A stretch of DNA of 64,000 bases from a virus. The notes beneath the pieces were generated by a model. That model saw nothing but the letters and a program-made list of their open reading frames with translations. It was not told the origin of the DNA and did not search any database. The stretch spans positions 1 through 64,000 of IMG/VR virus record IMGVR_UViG_3300023180_000042; one strand, written 5' to 3'. This document shows, in pieces, positions 11,253-36,531 of the stretch (positions within the stretch are counted from its first letter, which is position 1; every line of letters begins with the position of its first letter). The position numbers and the translations under genes were made by a program.

Positions 11253-14200
11253 ATGTCTTATCGTCCTCTCAAACACTTAAATGAAGGTGCGTTCAAAGAG
11301 CTACTGACTTCTGAAGAAGACTATCTGGCTTATCGAGCGGGTGTTCATTTAAGTAAAATGACAACAAGTGATTTGTCTGCGCTTTCTACTAACGCGGCAG
11401 GCGAACTTGTTGGTACGTTTGAAGACACTTTTTATACCTCTGGTCTAGGTCCCATTCCTGGCTCGACAATTACTCGCACAATTGCGATTACTCATGCATC
11501 TGATCCTGCTGGATCAACGCACACTTCTACGTTTGGTGCTTTCACGCCTTTACCCACTGTTGTTTATGTGGGAGACACAATTGAACTAACAATTCAAGGC
11601 ACAGCGACAAACACAGGCATTGGATTTGAAGAGATTGAATATCAGTTAGGTATTTCTGGTAGCGCGGCTATAGGAACTATTACTACGACTCCTTCGCCAG
11701 CGGCAACGAGTACGAGTGCAAACGGTCGAGAAGTATCGTGGGAAAATTATCCTGACGGCAATCTTAGCGGTTCTTATCAAGTCACGTGGTCTATTCCGAT
11801 TACCGATGATGGCGTAATCAACTTCACACTCAACGGTACTACTACTGATTTTCAAAACAGTGTTGTAAGTTCTACCGATGCTGAAGTGCTACCTTCTGTT
11901 CGTGTAGAGCCACAGTTGAAGCCAACTACTTCGGCTACACTGTATGAATTATATCAGAACGATGCGAATGTAGCAACCATCGACAACGACAATGCTCTAA
12001 AAAGAAATCCACTCTATTGGGATCGAACTGCAACGCCTGCTGGCTTGAAAGAAATGAGCGATGCAGAACTCGATATTGTAGTTCAAAGACTTCTTTTAAA
12101 AATCTTTGCAAACGATCTTCCCGGTCAGTATCGCCTTGCTACAGTATCTCCGGGCGCACAGTGGTCAGAGTTTATCGCAGATGTATTTGAAGACACTCGT
12201 GGTGACGGTTCACTTGTTACTTATTCTATCTGGGTCAAAACAACCGCAACAGTTCCGACAGTAGTTAAACCTATTTCGCCTTTACGTCAACCGTTGACTA
12301 ACAAGTTTCAAGGTATAAAGGATCTTAATGATTTAGAACTTGAAATGACTTTCGGCGAACGAATGAAGCAGGTTATTCAAGACACTGGCATTGGTAAGTA
12401 TCAACTTCGATCTTCTGCTGACGGACCACCTACAGATCCAGGTACGTGGGAAGCACGTGGTAGTGCAATCGATACAAACCTAACTTACGAATCTGAAACG
12501 GCTTATATTTCAACCGATTCGTATGATATTAACTACGCTTCGCAGTATCAAGGTTCATATGTTCCTGATTACATAGGCGAGTACATTGACACATACGAAT
12601 CCAACTATCTTGGTGAATACGGCGCTACTTATACATCATCTTATACTGGCAATTACGAGGCTACGTACATCGGTACGTTTAGTGGTGATTACGCGCAGAG
12701 TTATATAGGCGATTATCTTCTTGAGTACGCTCAATCTTATGAGAGTGGTTATGAAGGTGAATATGTTCCCAATTATTCGGGTCTTACTGTTGAAGAGCAG
12801 TACACGACCATTTACGAAGCTGAGGACGCGATTGAATTTTATGCGTCAGCATACGCAGAACTTTATGGTGATCTTCCTGTAATTTATACGGGCAACTATG
12901 TTACTCAGTACGTCGAGGAAGTTTATACAGGTAACTTTACGGAACTGTATGTCGGCGATTACGTCATAGACTATAGTGGTAACTTTACAGAAAATTACAT
13001 CGATGATGTCTATACAGGTAACTATATTGACGTATACACTGGCGACTACACAGAAAATTATGAAGGCAACTTTACCGTTAACTATATTCAAACTGAATAT
13101 GCCGGTAACTTTACACAGCCGTACACTGGTGATTTTACAGCCGCATACTCTACGTCTTATGCAGTTACTTACGCACAAGAAAACTATACTGGTAACTATC
13201 AATCAGATTATGCTTCTGAATATCAAGTGCCTTACACAGGCGACTTCTTAGCCACTTATATTCAGTTGATTTACGGTGGTAATTTCATCGAACAATACAG
13301 CGGTGACTTTACTGCAACTTATGCGGGCAACTTTACCGAAACTTATACTCAAGCCCAATATACTGGTAACTACTTGTCACAGTACGCTGGCAACTATCAG
13401 TCTGATTATTCTGGCGATTATATTGGAACTTATGAGCAACAGACTTACACGGGTAACTATATTTCTGATTACACGGGTAACTATCAGTCTCAGTATTCTG
13501 GTGACTTTACTGCCACTTATGCTCAAGCACAATACACAGGTGACTTCATTGTAAGTTACTCTGGTGACTTTATTGCTACATTCCAAGGACAGTATGAAGG
13601 CAATTATCAGTCTCAATACACTGGTAACTTCTTACAGGACTATACTGGTAACTTTATTCAAGGTTTTGAAGGACAATATCAAGGTAACTATCAAGTCAAC
13701 TATGACGGTAATTACATTTCGGACTATGTTACTGCTAGTTACACAGGCGACTTCTTGGCTGTTTATTCGGGCAACTTTGTAGAAACGTTCGAAGGTCAGT
13801 ACACTGGTAACTATCTTTCGACGTATGCTGGCAACTATACTTCAGATTACGTCGGCGATTTTGTTCAGACATTCCAAGGGCAATATGTCACTGTTTACGA
13901 AGAGCCGTATACCGGTAACTTTGTAAACACATTTATTTCTGCTGACTATACAGGCGATTACATCTCGCAATACGAGAGTAATTTCTTGCAAGCGTATTCT
14001 GGTAATTACGTCTCACTTTATGTGCAAGCCAACTATACTGGCAACTTCGCGGCTCAATATACTGGCGACTTTACCGCAAACTATCAAGGCGATTTTCTAA
14101 CTACATTCGTTGATGCGAACTACACTGGTAACTATGCTTCGGATTATGTTCGTGCGTCTTATACCGGTAACTTCCTAGCCACATATTCTGGCGATTTTCT

Positions 14201-17200
14201 TGCCTCTTATACCGGTGACTTTGTTACAACGTTCGTTGATGCGAACTATACTGGTAACTATGTTAGTCAATATTTGGGGACTCGGAATGTAACTTATTCG
14301 GGTAACTACATTTCGAATTACGCACAGGCGAACTATACGGGTAACTTCCTTGCAACATTCGTTGATGCAAACTACACAGGCAACTTCCTAGTAACTTATG
14401 CTGGCGACTTTACTGCTACATTCCAAGGGCAGTATCAAGGTGACTATGAGTCGGGCTATGCTGGCTCATTCGTCGCTCGATATACTGGTGACTTCTTAGG
14501 AACATTCCAGGGTCAATATGTTGGTGATTTCTTAGCCAACTATGATGGCAACTTTATTGCAAATTACGCTGGCGACTTCCTTGCTACGTTCCAAGGGCAG
14601 TATGTTGGTGACTATGTTGGTCAGTATACAAGACAAATCAACGTAGGCTATACAGGAAGCTTTCTGGCGACATTCCAGGGACAGTACACAGGTTCGTTTT
14701 CTCAAACTTATGTAGGGACTTACACAGGCACATATGTCGGTAACTACACTGGTACATATGTCGGAAACTATGCTGGTGCTTATGTATCGGCGGCAGCCAC
14801 TTATCAAGGTGGCTACGCCGGTGCTGCCGCTTGGACATCGTACTTCTTCAGTCTTAGTTCTCCTCGTTATTACTGGTATACGACACAAGCAAGATTTGCT
14901 TTTCCCGTAAACCGTTGGTTTTATTGGAATAATTCATTTCAATCATTGGCGAGCATTGCCAATGACGGATTAGTTCCCTTTTTTAGTCGCGGTTTTGAAT
15001 ATGAAGCGGGTACCATACAATATCAGACAGGATCGTCTTTAAGCACTCTCCGCAACTATTACAATATCAGACGCCGGTCAATTTTTGGTGGCTCAACATA
15101 CACTGGCGGATATACCGGCGGTGGCGGCACTTATACAGGAACATATGTTGGTTCGATTCAGCAAACCTATACTGGCTCGATTCAACAGTCGTACGATGGT
15201 AATTATATTGGCTCTGTTAACATAACATTCGTTGACGCAAACTATACTGGTGACTATCTTGGTCAGTATATACGAGCAATTAATCAAAGTTACACAAGTG
15301 TGTTCCAACAAACATTCGTTGATGCAAACTACACTGGTAACTTTATTGTTAATTATTCAGGCGATTATGTTTCTCGTTATACGGGCAACTTCCTTGCAAC
15401 GTTCGTTGATGCAAACTACTCTGGTAACTTCTTAGCGACATATACCGGCAACTATACTGGTGTATATGTTGGTAGCTTCCTTGCAACGTTTGTTGATGCA
15501 AACTATGTGGGTAACTATGTTTCGAACTATACCGGTGACTTCTTAGGAACGTTCCAGGGTCAGTACGTTGGTGATTTCTTAGCAACATTCCAAGGTCAGT
15601 ATCAAGGCGATTTTATTGCGAACTACGTTGCAACGTTCGAACAAAATTACACTGGTGACTTCCTTGCTACGTTCCAAGGCCAGTATCTGGGTAACTTTGT
15701 AACGCCTTATACTGGCAACTATATTTCAAATTATGCTGGCGACTTTACGGCGGCGTATACTGGAAACTATGTTGGCGATTTCTTAGCCACGTTCCAGGGA
15801 CAATATCTGGGTAACTTTACTGTACAATATACCGGTAATTATCTGAGTCAATATACTTCTGATTTCTTAGCCACGTTCCAGGGACAGTATGTCGGTGATT
15901 ACATTTCGAACTATAATGCAGACTTCAATACTCAGTATCAGTCAAACTTTACGGCAACGTTCCAGGGTCAGTACATTGGTGATTTCTTAGCAACATACAC
16001 TGGCACTTATGACACAATATATGTTCAAGCCGACTACACTGGTAACTTCGTCACAACATACAGTGGTGATTATATCTCTGATTACACCGGTGACTTTACT
16101 GCCAACTTCGTTTCACAGCAATACACTGGTGATTATATCTCTGATTACACTGGTAACTTTGCAGTAACGTATACTGGTAATTATCTCGGCGATTACGTTT
16201 CGCGATACACTGGCGACTACGTTGGAAATTACGCCGATCAAGTGTACGGTGGTGACTTTACTCAAGTCTATACTGGCGACTTTACGAATAACTACGTTGG
16301 CGATTATATTTCTACATACGCTCAAGCAGATTATTCTGGTAACTACGTATCAAATTATCAGGGTAACTTCACGGCGCAGTTCGAAGGTCAATACGTAGGC
16401 AACTTCTTAGAAGATTATACGGGCGACTTTACAGCTATTTACTCTGGTGACTTCCTTCAAGGATTTGCTGGTCAATACGAAGGTAATTATATTACTCCGT
16501 ATACCGGTGATTATATTTCAGCCTATACTGGTGATTTTCTTGCAACGTTTGAAGGTCAATATGTTGGCGATTTCATCGTACAATACACTGGTAACTTCAT
16601 CGAAACTTATGAAGCAGACTTCGTACAAGATTTTGAAGGTCAGTATACTGGTAACTATCAGTCTGACTATACTGGCGATTATGTCGCAATTTATACTGGT
16701 GACTTCTTACAGATTTTCCAAGGGCAATATGTCGGCGATTACGTAAAAGCATATATCGGCAATTATCAGTCAGCCTATACGGGCGATTTCGTATCGATAT
16801 TTGAAGGTCAGTACACCGGTGATTATCTGTCTGATTACACTGGTAACTATCAAGCAAATTATTCAGGCGACTATCTGTCTAACTTCGAAGGTCAGTACAC
16901 TGGTGACTTTATCGTAACATACACAGGCAATTACGAAGTAGACTACACGGGCGACTTTGTTGAATCATACACCCAAGATTATGAGCAAGACTACATAGAA
17001 GATTATGTTGCTCAAGAAGCATACGTAACGGCTTATGCTGGAAACTACACTCCAACATACGAAACAGTTTATACTGGTGATTATACTCCTGATTACGAAG
17101 GTCCATCGGGCGACTATTTAGGAACCTATCTTTCGAATTACACTGAAGAGTTGTATGCGCAAGAGTTTACGGTTGACTACATATCATTAGACTATACGAG

Positions 17201-17495
17201 AAATCGCGAAGAAAGTTACACTGGTGATTCTTATATAGAAACGTACACAACTGATTTCGAATCAAGTACTGATTACGCCACTTATTTGGGCGGTGATGAT
17301 AATGAAGAATATGTAGGAACATTTGAGGGCGCGGGAGATGCAGAAGTTTATGGTGGTTCTCCTTATGAAGGATCTAGTTACGTATCTGATTACAATCGAG
17401 TAGTTACCATCGCAGAAGCATATTTGGATGACGCTAAATTAACATCAACACCAGTAACAATTGAGACATTTACATTATACGTACGTGTTGCTTAA
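11253..17495 (+). CDS. Giant Tyr-Gly octad-repeat virion fibre-like protein
   Basis: 2080 residues. Residues 1-410 are non-repetitive, with an Ig-like beta region and a conserved-looking FQGIKDLNDLELEMTF block. From about 413 to 1960 the chain is built of octads [YF]-x-G-[ND]-[YF]-x-x-x (YTGNYVSQ, YSGDFLAT), spaced by 5-residue units such as FVDAN and by FQGQYxGDF variants. An island at about 1180-1280 rich in Trp/Tyr/Arg interrupts the repeats. The C-terminal 120 residues are acidic and then non-repetitive. No cysteine is seen and almost no Lys lies in the repeats. The regular aromatic spacing suggests a stacked beta structure (solenoid or fibre). Own late promoter; likely a long virion appendage (inference). 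Confidence 0.8.
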   Translation: MSYRPLKHLNEGAFKELLTSEEDYLAYRAGVHLSKMTTSDLSALSTNAAGELVGTFEDTFYTSGLGPIPGSTITRTIAITHASDPAGSTHTSTFGAFTPLPTVVYVGDTIELTIQGTATNTGIGFEEIEYQLGISGSAAIGTITTTPSPAATSTSANGREVSWENYPDGNLSGSYQVTWSIPITDDGVINFTLNGTTTDFQNSVVSSTDAEVLPSVRVEPQLKPTTSATLYELYQNDANVATIDNDNALKRNPLYWDRTATPAGLKEMSDAELDIVVQRLLLKIFANDLPGQYRLATVSPGAQWSEFIADVFEDTRGDGSLVTYSIWVKTTATVPTVVKPISPLRQPLTNKFQGIKDLNDLELEMTFGERMKQVIQDTGIGKYQLRSSADGPPTDPGTWEARGSAIDTNLTYESETAYISTDSYDINYASQYQGSYVPDYIGEYIDTYESNYLGEYGATYTSSYTGNYEATYIGTFSGDYAQSYIGDYLLEYAQSYESGYEGEYVPNYSGLTVEEQYTTIYEAEDAIEFYASAYAELYGDLPVIYTGNYVTQYVEEVYTGNFTELYVGDYVIDYSGNFTENYIDDVYTGNYIDVYTGDYTENYEGNFTVNYIQTEYAGNFTQPYTGDFTAAYSTSYAVTYAQENYTGNYQSDYASEYQVPYTGDFLATYIQLIYGGNFIEQYSGDFTATYAGNFTETYTQAQYTGNYLSQYAGNYQSDYSGDYIGTYEQQTYTGNYISDYTGNYQSQYSGDFTATYAQAQYTGDFIVSYSGDFIATFQGQYEGNYQSQYTGNFLQDYTGNFIQGFEGQYQGNYQVNYDGNYISDYVTASYTGDFLAVYSGNFVETFEGQYTGNYLSTYAGNYTSDYVGDFVQTFQGQYVTVYEEPYTGNFVNTFISADYTGDYISQYESNFLQAYSGNYVSLYVQANYTGNFAAQYTGDFTANYQGDFLTTFVDANYTGNYASDYVRASYTGNFLATYSGDFLASYTGDFVTTFVDANYTGNYVSQYLGTRNVTYSGNYISNYAQANYTGNFLATFVDANYTGNFLVTYAGDFTATFQGQYQGDYESGYAGSFVARYTGDFLGTFQGQYVGDFLANYDGNFIANYAGDFLATFQGQYVGDYVGQYTRQINVGYTGSFLATFQGQYTGSFSQTYVGTYTGTYVGNYTGTYVGNYAGAYVSAAATYQGGYAGAAAWTSYFFSLSSPRYYWYTTQARFAFPVNRWFYWNNSFQSLASIANDGLVPFFSRGFEYEAGTIQYQTGSSLSTLRNYYNIRRRSIFGGSTYTGGYTGGGGTYTGTYVGSIQQTYTGSIQQSYDGNYIGSVNITFVDANYTGDYLGQYIRAINQSYTSVFQQTFVDANYTGNFIVNYSGDYVSRYTGNFLATFVDANYSGNFLATYTGNYTGVYVGSFLATFVDANYVGNYVSNYTGDFLGTFQGQYVGDFLATFQGQYQGDFIANYVATFEQNYTGDFLATFQGQYLGNFVTPYTGNYISNYAGDFTAAYTGNYVGDFLATFQGQYLGNFTVQYTGNYLSQYTSDFLATFQGQYVGDYISNYNADFNTQYQSNFTATFQGQYIGDFLATYTGTYDTIYVQADYTGNFVTTYSGDYISDYTGDFTANFVSQQYTGDYISDYTGNFAVTYTGNYLGDYVSRYTGDYVGNYADQVYGGDFTQVYTGDFTNNYVGDYISTYAQADYSGNYVSNYQGNFTAQFEGQYVGNFLEDYTGDFTAIYSGDFLQGFAGQYEGNYITPYTGDYISAYTGDFLATFEGQYVGDFIVQYTGNFIETYEADFVQDFEGQYTGNYQSDYTGDYVAIYTGDFLQIFQGQYVGDYVKAYIGNYQSAYTGDFVSIFEGQYTGDYLSDYTGNYQANYSGDYLSNFEGQYTGDFIVTYTGNYEVDYTGDFVESYTQDYEQDYIEDYVAQEAYVTAYAGNYTPTYETVYTGDYTPDYEGPSGDYLGTYLSNYTEELYAQEFTVDYISLDYTRNREESYTGDSYIETYTTDFESSTDYATYLGGDDNEEYVGTFEGAGDAEVYGGSPYEGSSYVSDYNRVVTIAEAYLDDAKLTSTPVTIETFTLYVRVA
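12490..17130 (+). repeat. Coding tandem repeats, Tyr-Gly-Asn/Asp octads
   Basis: In-frame 24-base units encoding [YF]-x-G-[ND]-[YF]-x-x-x, well over one hundred by eye. Codons vary freely between units (TATACTGGTAAC, TACACAGGCGAC, TACACGGGTAAC), so the array is old and held by protein selection rather than recent DNA duplication. Some segments, such as those coding TFVDANYTGN, recur almost unchanged at the DNA level (for example near 14105, 14230, 14360, 15315, 15405), suggesting limited later exchange. Confidence 0.85.
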
Positions 17496-17510: not shown

Positions 17511-17990
17511 ATGGCAAAGTATGAGTACTTAGATAATGCATTTTGGGAAGCAGAAGATCGCTCAATCGTAAAATGCATTAGGCTAACTACGCTTGAAGGT
17601 CAAGAAGGCAAGAAGAAAAAAGACGTTATGGAGTTTCGCAAGATTCGTCCTGATGGCTCTGAATGCCCTCACTATAAAGAAGTGGTAACAAAAGTAGGCA
17701 TTCCAAAGATTGATGAGAATACTGCTGAACGTAAAGAAAGAAAAGAGCGTGAAGTAAGAGAAAAACGCGCTCATCACGAGCAAAAGAAAAAGACTGCTGA
17801 ACTAGAGCAACTTTTCAATCTTAAGCTTCAAGCCTTTGAAATTGAAGAGATTAAAAATTCTGAAGATCGTGTATTACGTGGCAAGATTCGTAGAGCGCAA
17901 AATGTAGTAGAAATGAATGCGTTGTGTGCAGTTTTGATCGCAAAAGAATTGGGCTATTATGGAGACAAAGATGACGCAGGAGCCAACTAA
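17511..17990 (+). CDS. Charged coiled-coil protein of unknown function
   Basis: 159 residues, ATG 15 bases after the giant repeat gene with a GGAG ribosome site. N-terminal 70 residues are mixed; residues about 70-125 are Lys/Glu/Arg-rich helix (ERKERKEREVREKRAHHEQK). I do not recognise a family. It lies between the repeat protein and the glycosyltransferase-like gene, whose start it overlaps, so the three are probably co-expressed. It could be an assembly chaperone or adaptor for the fibre; this is inference. Confidence 0.65.
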   Translation: MAKYEYLDNAFWEAEDRSIVKCIRLTTLEGQEGKKKKDVMEFRKIRPDGSECPHYKEVVTKVGIPKIDENTAERKERKEREVREKRAHHEQKKKTAELEQLFNLKLQAFEIEEIKNSEDRVLRGKIRRAQNVVEMNALCAVLIAKELGYYGDKDDAGAN

Positions 17991-18708
17991 GGGTTACGTA
18001 ATCGTTGCGTCACGGCGAAGTTTCTTTTATGTGTCTGCACTTAATTTGATGGAATCAATTCGCGATTTTTATCCTGATGCAAATATCTGTCTAGTCTGTG
18101 AAGAAAAGTTTCTTGATGATCGAGGACGAAAACTCGCCAACGAAATAATTTTCTGTAACGATCACAAGCGAGCCAAACTTTGGGGCATGGCAAAGTCTCC
18201 ATGGGATATTACATTCTATATTGACGCAGACACAGAAGTCGAGCATGAAGACATTGAACATGTCTTTGGCGAACTGAATGGCTATGATGTCATGTACACT
18301 GGTCTTCCCGAAGAACGTTCTTACTGTTATGCAGAACTGAAGTTTCCTGGTGGTCAATTCGAACTGTGTGGGGCAGTGTGTCTGTATGACATGCGCAATC
18401 CATTAGTGCGCGAGTTTATGTGGGACTGGTATGATCTGACTGTTCAACAATACGCAGGCACTTGGTGGCCACAGAAAGAAGATGGAACAGAAGATACTGA
18501 ATTATATCCTGCAACGTTGAAGCGTTGGGATCAATTCTCTCTTTGGTGGCTTGTAAACAAAGAGCCCAAGTATCAAGACTTGAAAGTGGGTATCTTTGAA
18601 GATGACGCCAGATGGAACTATTTTTCACGCTATAAATATGCTCACAACAAGAAGCCTGTTGTTATTAGACATTATTCTGCTTCTGAAGCGAAGCATATGG
18701 AGTTTTGA
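17971..18708 (+). CDS. GT-A-like glycosyltransferase
   Basis: 245 residues from the ATG at 17971, chosen because GGAG lies 6 bases upstream; an in-frame ATG at 17959 adds 4 residues. A Rossmann-like start (YVIVASRRSFFYVSALNLME) leads to a DxD motif in FYIDADTEVE (residues about 85-87), the metal/nucleotide-sugar site of GT-A enzymes, then FPGGQFELCGAVCLY and a Trp-rich acceptor-side region. Overlaps the upstream gene by 20 bases and the next by one. Likely sugar transfer onto a virion or host target; acceptor unknown. The adjacent fibre is an attractive substrate by context only. Confidence 0.7.
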   Translation: MTQEPTKGYVIVASRRSFFYVSALNLMESIRDFYPDANICLVCEEKFLDDRGRKLANEIIFCNDHKRAKLWGMAKSPWDITFYIDADTEVEHEDIEHVFGELNGYDVMYTGLPEERSYCYAELKFPGGQFELCGAVCLYDMRNPLVREFMWDWYDLTVQQYAGTWWPQKEDGTEDTELYPATLKRWDQFSLWWLVNKEPKYQDLKVGIFEDDARWNYFSRYKYAHNKKPVVIRHYSASEAKHMEF

Positions 18709-19385
18709 TGAGAGATATTCCACTTAACGATTTTGCATTAGACATCTTAGATGATGCGCTTTGGTTCACTCAAGACAAGAACTATGAGACTGTTGTGCTA
18801 ACAAAGAAAGATAAGCACACCAAAGAAGATGCTGACTGGTATACCGGCGAAGCATACTTCAAACAAATTATGGCGCAAGGTACAGGTCATAATGGATTTC
18901 CAGAAATTGTGGTATCTCATGGTTTTGGCATTGGTCAAATGCATTTCTCTAAAGAGAGAACTTCGCAGGCAAGAATTCCTGAAGTCTCTATGAAACAGGA
19001 TGCGTTTTTGCAAAAAATACAAACTACGTTCAATTTGAAACGTAATGCTCTATTTGCGGTTTATCCGCCAGGTGGTTACATTTCTTGGCACAACAATGCG
19101 AATGCTTCTGCATTCAACTGCGTCTTTACTTGGAGCGAAACCGGCGATGGTTGGTGGAAGCACTGGGATAATGAAAAGAAAGAAATGGTAACGATACCTG
19201 ATAAGAAAGGCTGGCAATGTAAAGTTGGTTACTTTGGTGCGTACGAAGATCCTGCCGAAAAGCTAGTGTATCACACAGCACGAAATGGCGACACAGGTTT
19301 ACGCATGACAGTTGCATTTGTGCTTGACAGATCAGAGATGGCTATAGGAATGCAAGATTGGATTATTGAAGATATTCACGCCTAA
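18708..19385 (+). CDS. 2OG-Fe(II) oxygenase-like protein
   Basis: 225 residues from the ATG that shares one base with the glycosyltransferase stop (TGATG), with GGAG 5 bases upstream. The C-terminal half resembles the 2-oxoglutarate/Fe(II) double-stranded beta-helix fold: YPPGGYISWHNN with H128, then VYHTARNGDTGLRMTVAF with H189 and R199 in the places of the distal His and 2OG-binding Arg. The usual HxD is HxN here, which would weaken iron binding, so it may be a divergent or inactive member. Related oxygenases are common in marine T4-likes near tail genes. Possible role: hydroxylation of a structural protein. Confidence 0.5.
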   Translation: MRDIPLNDFALDILDDALWFTQDKNYETVVLTKKDKHTKEDADWYTGEAYFKQIMAQGTGHNGFPEIVVSHGFGIGQMHFSKERTSQARIPEVSMKQDAFLQKIQTTFNLKRNALFAVYPPGGYISWHNNANASAFNCVFTWSETGDGWWKHWDNEKKEMVTIPDKKGWQCKVGYFGAYEDPAEKLVYHTARNGDTGLRMTVAFVLDRSEMAIGMQDWIIEDIHA

Positions 19386-19432: not shown

Positions 19433-19786
19433 ATGGCAAGGTATGAAGAATTAACTATCGATCAGGGAACAGATGTTTCTCTTGACGTGTATCTTACGAA
19501 CATCGATGGTTCACCAAAAGATTTGTCTGGCTATTCAGCCGCGGCTAAAATGAGTACGCGGTATGACGTTGATAGCTCAGATAAAATCTCTTTCGACGCT
19601 TATGTCACTGTCCCTCCAACTGCCGGCATTGTTAACTTATCTTTGACAAACACCGTCACAGATACGCTAAATAGTAAAAGAAAATATGTTTACGATATGG
19701 AAATTTCATATCAAGACAGCGATGCCAACACTATCGTAGAAAGAGTTCTTGAAGGACTTATAACAGTAACGCCTTCGGTAACATGA
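19433..19786 (+). CDS. Small beta-sandwich structural protein
   Basis: 117 residues, all beta-type sequence: EELTIDQGTDVSLDVYLTNI, then KDLSGYSAAAKM and a closing strand pair VYDMEISYQD. The pattern resembles N-terminal domains of phage upper-baseplate or fibre proteins (BppU-like Ig domain), but identity is too weak for a firm name. First gene of a fibre-type operon with its own late promoter; the next gene begins 7 bases later. Confidence 0.6.
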   Translation: MARYEELTIDQGTDVSLDVYLTNIDGSPKDLSGYSAAAKMSTRYDVDSSDKISFDAYVTVPPTAGIVNLSLTNTVTDTLNSKRKYVYDMEISYQDSDANTIVERVLEGLITVTPSVT

Positions 19787-30325: not shown

Positions 30326-31798
30326 ATGCCAGGCGTAAAGATTACAGACTTAGAAGAATTAGCACAAGCGCCTGCTGATGATGACATTCTTGTCATTGTC
30401 GATCTTGATGCAAACGCTACTAAGTTTATTTCAGTTGAAAATCTTCTAGAGCCAGCAAGTGCGGCGGCATCTGCCGGCACTGCTGACAAACTTCTGATCG
30501 AAGCGACTGATGCAGATGTTACATTTTATCTGGGTATGTTTCCTAACGCGCCTGGCACACCAGCGGCAGACTCCTGTAAAGTTGATACTGACTTAAGATA
30601 TAACGCACTTACAAACACGCTGACAACTGGATTCTTTGCAGGTAACGGTGCTAATCTAACGGGCGTTCTTGCAGATAGTGCCGCAAGAGCAACAACTGCG
30701 ATTGAAGCCCAACGAGCATTATTTGCAGAAGCCGCTCTAAGTGCTGATAGCGCAGACTTTGCGACTCAAGCAGTTTCAGCAGAACGAGCAGACAGTGCAA
30801 CAAACGCGACCAATGCTGTGTTTGCAACAACTGCGAACTTTGCGTTTGGTGCTGACAGTGCAAACAGAGCGACCACAGCAATTCAAGCGGATCGCGCAAC
30901 TCAAGCAGATAGTGCAATCAATGCCACTTTAGCAAATACTGCTTTGACTGCAAACTTTGCTATCGATGCAGATAGCGCAAACTATGCTACAACTGCTGGC
31001 TTTGCGCTAACTGCTGGCAATGCTGAAACTGCTGATAGTGCTGTCAATGCTACATTTGCAAACACCGCATTAACTGCTGAGAACGCAATTACTGCTGACA
31101 GTGCTATTAATGCATCGAATGCGGTATTAGCCGATGTTGCTGAACTTGCTAGACGCCTTGGAAACTTTATTGATTCTGCAACAGGATCAAGAGCCCTTGG
31201 TGATCTGAAAGTAGATAGCGATTTGATTGTACAAGGCGACATTCGAAGCGTAAACGGAATTTTTTACGGTGATGGATCTGGCTTAACAAACGTTACTAGT
31301 ACGACTGTGGCTTTGGCGACTCAGCAAACCGATGCCAAAGCTATTGACTCGGCGGGCAAACACTATCTCATGTTGCGTACCGTAGAGTTAGGATATGATA
31401 GTGTTGCCACTACTGCACTTCTTACTTATGATCCCGCAACATTTACACTCAGCGCAAATGCATTCTCTGGCGATGGCTCTAACTTAACAAACGTTACTGC
31501 TATTCAAGCGACCAACGCAGAAAACGTTGATGTAACAACTGTTGGCGATAGTGCGCTTTATTTTGTGCATTTAGGAAGTACCACATCTGGTAATGATAAC
31601 GTCAACGTAAACACAAACCTAACCTACAATCCATTAAGAGGCAGACTATCTGCAACAATTTTCGATACTGGCGAATGGGAAGTGTACGAGAGTGCGGGTA
31701 ACTTAACTTTTGCACACAACGGTACGAAACAGATGAGTCTTTCTGAGAATGGTGATCTTGCTATTGCTGGCACACTGTCTCAAAGTGCAACAATATAA
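30326..31798 (+). CDS. Fibre-like paralogue 3: Ala-Asp-Ser repeat shaft
   Basis: 490 residues. N-terminal paralogous domain (GVKITDLEELAQ, DDILVIVDLDANATKFIS). Residues about 115-275 are Ala-rich repeats around DSATNATNAVFATTA and ADSANYATTAGFAL. The remainder carries GDGSGLTNV / GDGSNLTNV motifs common in long phage fibres and a beta-rich tip (WEVYESAGNLTFAHNGTKQM). No enzymatic motif. Starts 3 bases after paralogue 2. Confidence 0.65.
   Translation: MPGVKITDLEELAQAPADDDILVIVDLDANATKFISVENLLEPASAAASAGTADKLLIEATDADVTFYLGMFPNAPGTPAADSCKVDTDLRYNALTNTLTTGFFAGNGANLTGVLADSAARATTAIEAQRALFAEAALSADSADFATQAVSAERADSATNATNAVFATTANFAFGADSANRATTAIQADRATQADSAINATLANTALTANFAIDADSANYATTAGFALTAGNAETADSAVNATFANTALTAENAITADSAINASNAVLADVAELARRLGNFIDSATGSRALGDLKVDSDLIVQGDIRSVNGIFYGDGSGLTNVTSTTVALATQQTDAKAIDSAGKHYLMLRTVELGYDSVATTALLTYDPATFTLSANAFSGDGSNLTNVTAIQATNAENVDVTTVGDSALYFVHLGSTTSGNDNVNVNTNLTYNPLRGRLSATIFDTGEWEVYESAGNLTFAHNGTKQMSLSENGDLAIAGTLSQSATI
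30660..31135 (+). repeat. Coding Ala-Asp-Ser repeats
   Basis: In-frame degenerate repeats coding ADSAxxAT(T/N)A within fibre paralogue 3; a shorter array of the same kind lies at about 28975-29370 in paralogue 1. Spacing is near-heptad, consistent with a trimeric shaft. Confidence 0.65.
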
Positions 31799-31831: not shown

Positions 31832-33253
31832 ATGGCAGACATTAGAATTTCAGAATTGCAAGAATTGATCAACGTTCAAGACAGTGACGTTCTTGTGATC
31901 AATGATATTACTGCGGCTACTACCAAAAAGATTACTCGTGATCGCTTTCTTGTAGGCATCACACGGAACGTTTTTGACTCCGCAAATAACGCAGTTGTAA
32001 AGCAAGACTTAAAGGTCAACAACGATCTGATCGTTGGTGGTGATATCGAAGCGACAGGTGATATTTCGTTTGGTTCATTGACCGACGTTACTGCTGGTAT
32101 TACAGCACTTCGATTTATTGGCACTGGTATTGAAAATAATGACAGTAATGGTGCTATTCCAACTGCGGCGGCTGTTGCTGATTATCTCGATTACTTCTTG
32201 CAGGATCTTTATGACTCTGCTACACTACCAGTCACGCTCAATGCGTTGACAGATGTTAGTATTGTCACGCCACTCGCAAATGAAGTTCTAAAGTACGATG
32301 GCTCAAACTGGATCAATGCGATTGACTCTGCGGGTATTACAAATCTTGGTGCACTTGATGATGTAATCATTTCAAGTCTTACTGACGGTCAGGCACTGAA
32401 GTATAATGGATCTTACTGGGTAAACGCAACTGACTCAGCCGGTCCAACTAATCTTTATCAGCTAGACGATATTTTTATCGACTCAGCACTGTCGGCTAAT
32501 CCTCTTACGACTGGACAAGTTCTCAAGTGGAACGGAACTAAGTGGGCTAACGCTAACGACTCTAGCGGTGGTGGCGGTGGTGCTGGCGGTGGACTCGACA
32601 GTGCGCTGACATTGCAACTGATTAGTTCGTCTGTCAATCTGAATACGCTTTCTGGTGTAGCAATCTCTGCACCCTCGACAAATCAGGTTCTCAAGTACAA
32701 TGGGTCTCAGTGGGTAAATGCCGCTGACTCTGTTGGTGCTGGCGGAAGTAATGCTCTCAACGATTTGACCGATGTTGTCATCTCAACACCTAGCACGAAT
32801 CAAGTTCTGAAGTATAATGGTTCTAACTGGGTAAATGCGGCTGACTCCGTTGGCGGAGCTGGCGCTGGTTTATCGTCTCGCGGCACATTCAATACTGTCA
32901 CCGCTTCGTTGAGCAATAATGACTCAGTAGACGTGAACATTACTGGAGCATATAAAGGTTATTCGATGCTCAAGATTCAAACAGACGTTGCGGCATGGGT
33001 AAGAGTCTACACTGATTCGGCTTCGCGTACTGCTGATCTCGGTCGGCTTTCGTCAGAAGATCCAGCACCAGGCTCTGGTGTTGTAACTGAGGTAATCACA
33101 TCGGGTGCAGAGACAATCAACTTGGCTCCTGGACCTATCGGCTTTAACAATTCGTCGCCCGTAACTGACACTATTCCTATCAAGATCGTAAATCTAAGTG
33201 GAGGTGCATCCGCGGTCGACGTTACACTTACGGCGTTGAAGCTTGAAGCATGA
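31832..33253 (+). CDS. Fibre-like paralogue 4 with LKYNGSxWVNA repeats
   Basis: 473 residues. N-terminal paralogous domain (DIRISELQELINVQDSDVLV, TKKITRDRFL). Residues about 135-345 hold five copies of a roughly 40-residue fibre repeat with core VLKYNGSxWVNAxDS (one variant is VLKWNGTKWANANDSSG) separated by Gly-rich linkers. The C-terminal domain (GYSMLKIQTDVAAWVRVYTD and ETINLAPGPIGF) resembles the tip domain of fibres in marine T4-likes. Probably a receptor-contacting or decoration fibre. Overlaps the subtilisin gene by 4 bases. Confidence 0.7.
   Translation: MADIRISELQELINVQDSDVLVINDITAATTKKITRDRFLVGITRNVFDSANNAVVKQDLKVNNDLIVGGDIEATGDISFGSLTDVTAGITALRFIGTGIENNDSNGAIPTAAAVADYLDYFLQDLYDSATLPVTLNALTDVSIVTPLANEVLKYDGSNWINAIDSAGITNLGALDDVIISSLTDGQALKYNGSYWVNATDSAGPTNLYQLDDIFIDSALSANPLTTGQVLKWNGTKWANANDSSGGGGGAGGGLDSALTLQLISSSVNLNTLSGVAISAPSTNQVLKYNGSQWVNAADSVGAGGSNALNDLTDVVISTPSTNQVLKYNGSNWVNAADSVGGAGAGLSSRGTFNTVTASLSNNDSVDVNITGAYKGYSMLKIQTDVAAWVRVYTDSASRTADLGRLSSEDPAPGSGVVTEVITSGAETINLAPGPIGFNNSSPVTDTIPIKIVNLSGGASAVDVTLTALKLEA
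32235..32865 (+). repeat. Five coding repeats, LKYNGSxWVNA module
   Basis: Five in-frame modules with the core LKYNGSxWVNAxDS inside fibre paralogue 4. The last two are nearly identical in protein (ISTPSTNQVLKYNGSNWVNA, ISAPSTNQVLKYNGSQWVNA), pointing to a recent duplication. Confidence 0.8.
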
Positions 33254-36200
33254 CATTAAAAGTCTATCACGTCATATTGCATCGTACAGAGGATCTGGAT
33301 GCATTTTATGCTGATATGGAGACGCCGGGAGGCTATCTCCATATACCAGATCGTGCTGTTGATTATGCCGCAAGGCTTCCTTTCAGTAAAGTCACTGCAT
33401 ATCGTCTAACAGACGAAGAAGCGGAACAAGTAAAACAAGATCCTCGTGTTCGTGCAGTTGAACCTGCACTTGAAGACCACGGCATTTTTGCGAAGCCCAC
33501 TTGGACCGATACTGGTCAATGGCGCAAAGATGACGGCGCAAACGCAACAAACAGTCAACAAAACTGGGCTTTGTATCAGTGTACCCGAGATACAATCTCT
33601 ACCACATATGGCACAGACGGCACAGCACTTGTCATATCACAAACTTCAGCCAATGCTGAAGGAAAAGACGTTGATGTCATTGTTGTCGATGGCATTCCCA
33701 ATTTAGATCACCCAGAATTTGCTGTCAATGCTGACGGCACGGGTGGATCACGCATCATTCAATACAACTGGTTTCAACATACTGATTCTGTTACGGGCGG
33801 TGCATATGCAAATGGAACGTGGGATTATACTACAGAATCGCTAGGTGATTCAGAAAACAATAACCATGGCACACACGTCATGGGCACAGTTGCGGGTAAT
33901 AGACAGGGTTGGGCACGAAAAGCAAATCTGTACTCGATCAGTCCGTATGGTTCTAACTACAATTGGACATCTACTGGCATTAGTTCTAGTTATGTATTTG
34001 ACTACGTACGAGCGTTTCATCGAAATAAAAGCATCAATCCTAGAACTGGTCGAAAGAATCCAACGATTATTAACAACAGTTGGGGTTACTCGTACCCTGA
34101 TACAGGCAATATCATCGACTCAGCTGGATCAGTAGAGCGAATTGTCTTTCGAGGAACAACGTACAACGGTCCCTTTACGACCGAGCAAATGCTAAACTAT
34201 GGTGTTCCACCTTATTGGGCTTACACAAAAGCCGCGGTCGACGCTGGTATTCCTATTGAAGTTGCTGATGGTGTCTATACCACTCCGCCAGCAAAAGTCA
34301 CAAGCATTGGATGGAAGCTTACAACTCCCGCAACAAAAACACAAGAGTGCATCGACGATGGAATCATTGTGGTTTCTGCGGCGGGTAACAGTTCTCAGTA
34401 CATTGATTCGTCGAATGGCGATGATTATAATAATAAGTTGTTTTTAAAATATAATGCGTTTCCTGCTACCATCTCTGCATTTCAAGGAGCGAGCGATTCA
34501 GCGATATACTATCATCGAGGGTCAGCACCCGGAAATACTTCGTTGTGTATTGGTAATGCATCCATCTATCAAAACAATCAGAGAGAATTTTCAAGCAACT
34601 TCGGTCCTAGAATCGATCTCTTTGCGCCTGGTGATGAGATCATTAGCGCAATTCGTCACAATGATTTTTATGACAACATCGTAACTGATCCAAGAAATGC
34701 ATCATACTATTACGGAATCATTGGTGGCACAAGTATGTCTGCACCTCAGGTGACAGGTGTTCTTGCATCTATTCTTCAGATTAATCCAGACTTTAGACAA
34801 GCAGACGCAAAGAGATACATTCAAGGCACAGCATTCACAGGTGCGATGTTCGATTCTTCAACTGATTGGGGAAATGTCACAACGTATGGCTGGAATACTC
34901 TTTATGCTTTGAGTACAGATTTAAAAGATACAGTTGACTTGTATCTTCGTTATAGAGAAGAACGTGCAAGTGTTGGTGTCACACTTCCAAAAATAAATAA
35001 TAGAGAAAGACCAACAACGGGTGTTCTTTGGCCTAGACCTAAAGTTATTAAGACACGCAGAAGCACTGGTGATATTCTTTATCCTTCGCCTGATGCTGAT
35101 CTTGCACTAGCACCGCTTGACGCTCAAACTTCATATGCGGGTACTTTCACGGCTAACTTTGTGGGCGATTCTGCTATTACATATACGGGTGACTTCACAA
35201 CTGATTACACAAGTATTGACATATACGTCAATGACAGCACAGGACTAGATTATAGCCCAGCCTATGCGAGTGGTTATATTGGCGACTTTACTGCTGTTTA
35301 TACGGGAAATTATCTTGGAGCGTATGAAGGAAATTATAATCTAACTTATGCAAGTACAGCGTATCTAAGTCGTTATAGTGCGACAGACTACATTGGGTCG
35401 GATGGTTCATATGAAACCAGTTATAATAGCTTTTACGAAGGTCCATCGGGCACCTATTTAGCAACTTACGTGGGCACGATGGCGTACTTTGGTGATTATG
35501 TGGTATCACCCGACGAACTAGATTACACTACTGACTACGGCGTTGGCATAAAGTATACGGGAGATTATCAAGGTCCTGCACATCCGGGCTTTGAAACAAA
35601 TTATATTGGTTCTTATCAGTCTGAAGTTCAAGAAGGTGGTGGCACGTTCTTGGATTCAGTAACATACTCCGGTAACTTTATTAGTGATTACTCAAATCCA
35701 ACAGACTATGTATCTGATTATACAGGTAACTATGTAGCAAACTACCTTGCTACTATTATAGTTTACTCGTCTGAGTATATTTCCAATTACGCCGGTAATT
35801 ATACTCTTGAAGGCTATACTGGAGACTTTCTTGCCAACTTTACTGGAACTGAAGCATATACTTCAGACAGTGCGGGTGACGGCGCTATCATAATTTCAGA
35901 TTATCTGGGAACATATACTGGAAACTATGTTGACTCTGGTGATGCATCATACATTGGATCTTACTTGGGCGACTTCAGTGCGAATTACACAGGTAACTTC
36001 TCATCTAATCTAGAATACACTGGTGGAGATGGCGGCACATATTTGGGCGCATATCTAGGAAACTTTAGTGCGATTTACACAGGCAATTATGTCGGTGGGG
36101 CTTACCAGGCAACTTATGTCGGTGCATCGAACACTTCGTTGAATGTAACGAACAATGGTGCTTCTAACTACATTATTGATAGTGCATCGAACCCAACGTT

Positions 36201-36531
36201 GACACTTGAAAGAGACACTACATATACATTTAACTTAAGTGTCGGTGGACATCCGTTCTGGATTAAGACAGCGGCAACTACTGGAACTGGCGATCAGTTC
36301 AATACTGGTGTGACAAACAACGGCGCAGAAACAGGCACGTTGACGTTTACTCCTGACTCTGCCGCACCAAGTACTCTCTACTACATCTGTCAGTACCATA
36401 GCGGAATGGTAGGCACTATAAATATTGTTGCCGCCGGTTCTACAGACTACGTTACTGTCTTTACCGGTGTCGATCAAGAAAATTATATAGGTGACTTTAC
36501 AACATCGTTTACAGGCGGCTACAATGCATAA
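33250..36531 (+). CDS. Subtilisin-like protease fused to Tyr-Gly octad repeats and a cupredoxin domain
   Basis: 1093 residues. Residues 1-78 look like an I9-type propeptide (LTDEEAEQVKQDPRVRAVEP). Residues about 138-550 form an S8 subtilase with a full triad: D147 (VIVVD), H206 (NNHGTHVMGT), S495 (GGTSMSAP), plus oxyanion N380 (AAGNS). From about 628 to 955 come the same octads as the giant protein upstream (YTGDFTTD, YTGNYLGA). Residues about 960-1062 form a plastocyanin/azurin-type domain with candidate type-1 copper ligands H1001, C1047, H1050 and M1053 (CQYHSGM, the amicyanin C-x2-H-x2-M spacing). No signal peptide, so likely a virion protein. Confidence 0.85.
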   Translation: MTLKVYHVILHRTEDLDAFYADMETPGGYLHIPDRAVDYAARLPFSKVTAYRLTDEEAEQVKQDPRVRAVEPALEDHGIFAKPTWTDTGQWRKDDGANATNSQQNWALYQCTRDTISTTYGTDGTALVISQTSANAEGKDVDVIVVDGIPNLDHPEFAVNADGTGGSRIIQYNWFQHTDSVTGGAYANGTWDYTTESLGDSENNNHGTHVMGTVAGNRQGWARKANLYSISPYGSNYNWTSTGISSSYVFDYVRAFHRNKSINPRTGRKNPTIINNSWGYSYPDTGNIIDSAGSVERIVFRGTTYNGPFTTEQMLNYGVPPYWAYTKAAVDAGIPIEVADGVYTTPPAKVTSIGWKLTTPATKTQECIDDGIIVVSAAGNSSQYIDSSNGDDYNNKLFLKYNAFPATISAFQGASDSAIYYHRGSAPGNTSLCIGNASIYQNNQREFSSNFGPRIDLFAPGDEIISAIRHNDFYDNIVTDPRNASYYYGIIGGTSMSAPQVTGVLASILQINPDFRQADAKRYIQGTAFTGAMFDSSTDWGNVTTYGWNTLYALSTDLKDTVDLYLRYREERASVGVTLPKINNRERPTTGVLWPRPKVIKTRRSTGDILYPSPDADLALAPLDAQTSYAGTFTANFVGDSAITYTGDFTTDYTSIDIYVNDSTGLDYSPAYASGYIGDFTAVYTGNYLGAYEGNYNLTYASTAYLSRYSATDYIGSDGSYETSYNSFYEGPSGTYLATYVGTMAYFGDYVVSPDELDYTTDYGVGIKYTGDYQGPAHPGFETNYIGSYQSEVQEGGGTFLDSVTYSGNFISDYSNPTDYVSDYTGNYVANYLATIIVYSSEYISNYAGNYTLEGYTGDFLANFTGTEAYTSDSAGDGAIIISDYLGTYTGNYVDSGDASYIGSYLGDFSANYTGNFSSNLEYTGGDGGTYLGAYLGNFSAIYTGNYVGGAYQATYVGASNTSLNVTNNGASNYIIDSASNPTLTLERDTTYTFNLSVGGHPFWIKTAATTGTGDQFNTGVTNNGAETGTLTFTPDSAAPSTLYYICQYHSGMVGTINIVAAGSTDYVTVFTGVDQENYIGDFTTSFTGGYNA
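35140..36110 (+). repeat. Coding Tyr-Gly octad repeats in the protease
   Basis: In-frame degenerate units coding [YF]-x-G-[ND]-[YF]-x-x-x, less regular than in the 2080-aa protein and broken by spacers, between the subtilase and cupredoxin domains. The unit definition is the same, so the two proteins share this module. Confidence 0.8.
36417..36424 (+). promoter_or_regulatory. Possible internal late promoter
   Basis: Exact TATAAATA inside the 3' end of the subtilisin gene, 107 bases before the ATG at 36524. Spacing is longer than at other sites and the bases are coding (GTINIV), so it may be chance. Confidence 0.35.

Follow-up and report, generated by a model that had tools for sequence, protein, structure and literature searches.

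Background

In the SMC/Rad50 proteins, the N- and C-terminal parts of the chain form one head; the chain runs outwards, turns at a middle hinge and returns antiparallel, giving two arms of equal length. The giant tetrad/octad repeat protein described here (2080 amino acids, aa; 11253..17495, + strand; open reading frame with an ATG start) is encoded in a 64,000-base window, the whole stretch of DNA analysed, which is a section of the 74,322-base IMG/VR virus record IMGVR_UViG_3300023180_000042. It probably forms a virion fibre that consists of a single long hairpin. The likeness to SMC/Rad50 is one of topology only: those are intracellular ATPases with an alpha coiled coil and without sequence relation to the protein, which carries tetrad beta-type repeats and lies in a virus structural region.

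The C-terminal triple-stranded beta-helix of T4 gp5 (VxGxxxxx; PMC4576200) shares the 8-residue rhythm, Gly at position 3 and occurrence in a T4-like structural protein. It is a trimer of intertwined chains, unlike the hairpin model. The repeat protein differs by Tyr/Phe in place of Val (of 111 octads, 110 have Tyr and one has Phe at position 1), an aromatic residue at position 5, a period of 4 and mirror-complementary arms. Tail fibres of the T4/T5 type are encoded in the same kind of neighbourhood, with a tail-fibre-assembly relative (phrog_3304), and have no sequence match; here, in contrast, the variable domain is central and the conserved C-terminus is placed at the base. Mimivirus is reported to encode collagens and the enzymes that modify them (PMC9546862), and the likeness is the combination of a virus-encoded repetitive protein with such enzymes. 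The collagens differ in forming a collagen triple helix; the arms described here are nearly devoid of Pro and Lys, and no collagen-like GXY triplets with Pro were found (period 4; Pro <1% of arm residues).

Among GenBank phages, the only homologue found is CDS0201 of Phage C48C1 (OQ984149, Kyanoviridae, 3347 aa, annotated hypothetical). It has the same gene cassette and differs by Arg-rich tetrads and globular inserts in the inbound arm. Literature searches for C48C1 or for fibres of this type returned nothing.

Repeat pattern and arm layout

Strict octads, [YF]xG[ND][YF]xxx, number 115 in the protein, against a mean of 1.4 and a maximum of 6 in shuffles of the repeat region (n=200). Cys is absent from the 2080 residues, and Lys occurs 15 times, once in the arms. 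The pattern reported by an earlier sequence-only reading is thus real, and its view that such an aromatic-rich repeat belongs to no named family holds: the whole protein matched 0 families in Pfam, PHROGs and NCBIfam profiles, and the repeat region had no match among PDB sequences. The same reading assigned about three quarters of the protein to an octad. The rhythm does span ~70% of residues, as tetrad arms, but strict octads cover only ~44%. Octads exist; the basic period is nevertheless 4, not 8, and consecutive aromatics spaced by exactly 4 form 310 pairs. Tetrads are grouped in seven-segment super-repeats, either 28 aa long, with 7 tetrads, or 29 aa long, with 6 tetrads and one pentad. 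The 28-aa unit carries the tetrad FQGQ/FEGQ; the 29-aa unit carries a 5-residue spacer, e.g., FVDAN or YIDDV.

The protein begins with a conserved N-terminal base domain (aa 1-424; 11253..12524, +; 37-87% identity to relatives). An outbound repeat arm follows (aa 425-1180; 12525..14792, +; ~184 tetrads/pentads), then a non-repeat middle domain, the presumed tip (aa 1181-1290; 14793..15122, +), and an inbound repeat arm that is mirror-complementary to the outbound one (aa 1291-1998; 15123..17246, +; ~173 tetrads/pentads). The C-terminal segment, ending TLYVRVA, is conserved across the family (aa 1999-2080; 17247..17495, +). Acidic residues rise from the presumed tip towards the base in both arms.

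The two arms are equal in length in 32 distinct members of the family, over a ~30-fold range of 46-1361 aa (log-Pearson 0.991; inbound/outbound ratio 1.01 ± 0.08). The middle domain is offset from the exact array centre by a mean of 1.4% of the array, compared with 25% under random placement. Arm boundaries were taken from an automatic repeat track and then entered by hand. In C48C1 (L001:16012-26055), several extra globular inserts occur in the inbound arm; without them the repeat residues of its arms are still roughly equal, as judged by eye.

Purifying selection acts on the repeat pattern at the protein level, as the sequence-only reading had concluded from codon differences between units. 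Codon choice does vary between identical repeat units. In comparison with a relative 85% identical (L015), the repeats have a ratio of nonsynonymous to synonymous substitution rates (dN/dS) of 0.079; the values are 0.125 for the N-terminal domain and 0.33 for the middle domain, which is the fastest-evolving part of the protein. Across 111/111 units, octad positions 1 and 3 are unchanged between the two proteins; identity is 95% at position 4 ([ND]), 97% at position 5 ([YF]) and 73-86% at the free positions.

Mirror complementarity of the arms

The FQGQ-type tetrads of either arm are the mirror partners of the FVDAN-class spacers in the opposite arm. With FQGQ-type tetrads written as Q, 5-residue spacers as B and other tetrads as dots, and with both arms read from tip to base, the outbound arm of the window protein starts .........Q......Q......Q......Q....B..B......B and the inbound arm ........B......B......B......B....Q..Q......Q. 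In the window protein, 21/22 Q stand exactly opposite B, ungapped and at one constant offset. In the longer relative L017 the count is 43/44, ungapped across ~317 tetrads (~1270 aa per arm): inbound FQGQ tetrads face outbound pentads in 35/35 cases, inbound pentads face outbound FQGQ in 8 matches, and the register covers irregular 3-, 10- and 34-step intervals. At the mirror register neither protein has any Q-Q or B-B facing. Shuffling of the inbound unit order (2000 trials) gave at most 12 matches for the window protein and 28 for L017; the best parallel alignment of the arms gave 10 and 22, respectively. The extra units of L017 are inserted at a matching level in both arms, with the odd 3-tetrad step at an identical index; L017 is longer because units were gained on both arms at the same level. 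Both spacer types had already been noted in the sequence-only reading and are real classes; they are not random punctuation, and the mirror code that they form is a feature beyond that account.

Many relatives have Arg tetrads (YSRTRVSAY) in place of some tetrads, and in 24 Arg-rich ones blocks of Arg lie across from blocks of Gly. The Gly-minus-Arg tracks of the mirrored arms correlate below -0.5 in 24/24 Arg-rich members, in 0/24 when the second arm is reversed (parallel) and in 66/262 exchanges of arms between members, mostly close kin. With the position of the middle domain withheld, an unbiased search placed the mirror centre inside that domain in 23/24 Arg-rich members; in the window protein the centre lies at ~aa 1232.

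The B/Q test worked in the window protein, L015 and L017 and was less clear in the incomplete L047. In a mirror scan of the Arg-poor members L157, L136, L130, L133, L123 and L125, FQGQ-type marks were too sparse or the centre was indistinct. Some comparisons were discarded. Spacers of the same type showed no excess at mirror positions (p 0.92), a test that then exposed the opposite-type pairing; residue-level arm alignment on aromatics only gave an ambiguous register; gapped alignment of Gly and non-Gly tetrads did not discriminate against alternating nulls.

Since the two arms are mirror-image partners, the chain most likely goes out and then folds back on itself, and the mirror register favours an antiparallel pair of arms over a parallel intertwined trimer. 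The simple one-way octad fibre or homotrimer of the sequence-only reading finds no support in that form; the array consists of two equal arms in mirror register around a middle domain. A parallel homotrimeric beta fibre with octads stacked one way, on the pattern of T4 gp5C or of the classical long tail fibres, is quite improbable. The tail-fibre gene neighbourhood would suit it, and the octad with Gly at position 3 recalls the gp5 beta-helix (VxGxxxxx; PMC4576200); it leaves the equal arms, the spacer partners and the mirror blocks of Arg and Gly unexplained, and the fastest-evolving domain is central, not C-terminal. Trimerisation could coexist with the fold-back as a trimer of hairpins.

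Proposed architecture of the fibre

In the hairpin model, the base would consist of the N-terminal domain joined by the conserved C-terminal strand. Leaving this base, the outbound arm would turn at the middle domain, which is small and variable and is the putative tip and probable site of receptor contact. The inbound arm would come back antiparallel alongside the outbound one, in tetrad-for-tetrad register. Gly tetrads (YxG[ND]) would then have Arg tetrads or non-Gly, FLAT-like tetrads opposite them, and the 4-residue FQGQ tetrads would face the 5-residue FVDAN-like spacers. Arm length would shift when both arms gain or lose matching units. The arms are pictured as extended beta chains paired inside one molecule. 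If the arms, of ~710-760 aa, were fully extended, the fibre could be about 0.2 micrometre and at most ~0.24 micrometre long, less if coiled, in place of the several tens of nanometres proposed from the sequence alone; at 0.33 nm per residue, fibre lengths in the family would be ~15 to 450 nm.

AlphaFold modelling was applied to the minimal member L107 (423 aa) and to the oxygenase of the cassette. In the L107 model, the predicted local distance difference test score (pLDDT) is mostly >90 over the N-terminal domain and also over the final ~20 residues, and long strands occupy residues 259-289 and 389-421. The C-terminal strand appears, with good model confidence, to belong with the N-terminal base domain; pairing of the two long strands is suggested by pLDDT and strand lengths, not by coordinates. 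The base-domain model had no match in PDB and BFVD (Foldseek, VIA), by which novelty of the fold is not proven.

Several observations weigh against the hairpin model. The short repeat arms of L107 have pLDDT <50, so the model argues for neither stacking nor disorder. Complementarity of Gly and non-Gly tetrads is by itself weak in alternating arrays, where a shifted register scores nearly as high; the mirror case therefore rests on the rarer spacers and the Arg blocks. Identical mirror pairing and equal arms would also be given by an antiparallel homodimer, the main structural rival, in which the outbound arm pairs with the inbound arm of the other chain, the middle domains lie centrally and a base stands at each end, as in a strut. 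The dimer is unlikely: it requires two bases per particle, awkward in a tail appendage, and the monomer model puts the C-terminus with its own base domain, though domain swapping would look alike. A flexible, disordered Tyr/Gly-rich tether or silk-like adhesive without fixed register would accord with the low-complexity composition and the low pLDDT of the L107 repeats. It gives no reason for 317 tetrads in exact mirror register or for a dN/dS of 0.08 and is very improbable.

Distribution of the family

Relatives in IMG/VR number 101 by the N-terminal domain and 314 by the neighbouring glycosyltransferase-like gene. The family is undescribed in the searched libraries and widespread among uncultivated T4-like viruses. 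Its gene cassette occurs in Phage C48C1 and in >100 contigs of uncultivated viruses. Complete members are 423 to >3300 aa long, with a common start (PLK...EENYLAY) and, in nearly all, the end TLYVRxA; the middle region varies freely in length and composition. A search of bacterial genomes with the N-terminal domain as query gave no relative. A contig binned as Sphingobacteriales bears the same cassette and appears to be phage DNA. The gene psbA, sought as a sign of a cyanobacterial host, was absent from 10 records. Matches in Synechococcus S-RIM2 (a different, VTGN-type low-complexity array) and Enterococcus phage Riverwalk (at a place where no gene is annotated) were judged compositional.

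In two relatives of this locus, L049 and L167, the rhythm is another one, and most aromatics are spaced by 6 or 10 residues (FIDNIDFIDNVDYIDN-like). Two repeat genes of the family stand in tandem in L027, L033, L053, L069 and L050. A second octad-bearing protein is encoded in the window at 33250-36531, with a subtilisin-family domain (PF00082, E 5e-27) followed by ~22 octads; its C-terminal part matches phrog_677.

Genome setting and neighbouring genes

The window comes from a marine virus, and its structural module is T4-like, with baseplate wedge, neck genes, terminase, sheath, gp20 portal, scaffold and gp23. The repeat gene sits between the baseplate and neck genes, in a stretch similar to the cluster for host recognition that related pelagimyophages carry (PMC7029224). 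This neighbourhood suggests a location on the phage tail and agrees with the virion fibre that the sequence-only reading had proposed. Within the structural module, the product of 30326-31798 contains a Chlorovirus glycoprotein repeat (PF06598, E 8e-10).

Directly downstream of the repeat gene lies an accessory gene (159 aa; 17511..17990, +), possibly for a dedicated chaperone, and after it a glycosyltransferase-like gene (249 aa; 17959..18708, +) with GT-A/GT8-like motifs YIDAD, DQ, RWN and RHYS. They are followed by a gene of the 2OG-Fe(II) oxygenase fold (225 aa; 18708..19385, +; H128, N130, H189, R199) and a relative of the L-shaped tail fibre assembly protein (phrog_3304/phrog_1084; 117 aa; 19433..19786, +). 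The same order (~155-aa, ~245-aa and ~230-aa genes, then the tail-fibre-assembly relative) follows the repeat gene in 69/69 loci with >=3 kb downstream, which are not independent, some being one contig fetched twice; among them the accessory gene was undetected in L095 only. The reverse search, begun at the ~245-aa gene, found a gene for a tetrad-repeat protein upstream at almost every locus that extends that far; L158, L159, L167 and L174 are exceptions or diverge.

The 225-aa protein has, in its AlphaFold model (pLDDT 95.5), the prolyl-hydroxylase fold, a double-stranded beta-helix. The model matches P. putida P4H 4j25 (Foldseek, E 3.9e-6), PHD2 3oui (VIA; Z 11.2, rmsd 3.0, 146 residues aligned) and the chlorella-virus collagen prolyl hydroxylase (Z 9.6). 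His128, His189 and Arg199 are invariant in 40 sequences. Two further oxygenase paralogues occur within the same phage genomes (L001; records G001, G002, G005); one of those of C48C1 lies between the tail tube and uvsY genes. The glycosyltransferase-like protein has the motifs of the GT-A fold, namely a DxD metal motif, DQ and a C-terminal His, and would be assigned to it on these motifs. D83-A84-D85, D180-Q181 and H229 (L022 numbering) are at least 97% conserved in 68 sequences. It aligns with E. coli WaaJ at the DxD region, weakly and not significantly. It reached no Pfam family, and PF01501 (glycosyltransferase family 8) had no match in the genome of the window at E up to 10. Profiles of the enzymes gave nothing significant against single E. 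coli proteins and nothing against PDB sequences. A distant glycosyltransferase relative (38%; L198:5543-6597) stands beside a non-octad gene and a fibre-assembly relative, without the oxygenase.

By analogy with the mimivirus collagens (PMC9546862), the fibre may be hydroxylated, and perhaps glycosylated, by the two neighbouring enzymes. With Pro and Lys almost absent from the arms, candidate targets would be Asn/Asp, Thr/Ser, Tyr or Arg. Two features of the enzymes count on the opposing side. Position 130 of the oxygenase is Asn in 40/40 sequences where the canonical iron ligand is Asp, so activity is likely, not certain. Both enzymes are also retained where octads are few (L093, L097, L107), so their substrate may be something other than the repeats. 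They may act instead on host lipopolysaccharide or another virion protein, an arrangement that fits any fibre model and is a substantial possibility, somewhat short of an even one. The GT8 enzymes of pelagimyophages have been proposed to act on lipopolysaccharide (PMC7029224), and both the oxygenase paralogues at other sites and the glycosyltransferase relative beside a non-octad gene accord with such a role. The tight linkage to the fibre gene, seen from both search directions, speaks for action on the fibre.

Implications

Whether the protein represents a new class of fibre is evenly balanced. Such a class would consist of a single chain of hundreds of tetrads, self-paired by a two-letter code (Gly versus bulky, 28- versus 29-residue units). 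Its length would be governed by the paired addition of units, and dedicated hydroxylating and glycosylating enzymes, encoded adjacent, would finish it. If the hairpin is true, the fold of the fibre would be readable from sequence almost like base pairing, and one arm would largely predict the other. It would constitute a new architecture of viral appendages and a design rule for length-programmable fibres. Among uncultivated marine T4-like viruses, the middle domains would be candidates for receptor-binding tips, and modification of a fibre by phage-encoded hydroxylase and glycosyltransferase would become a testable question.

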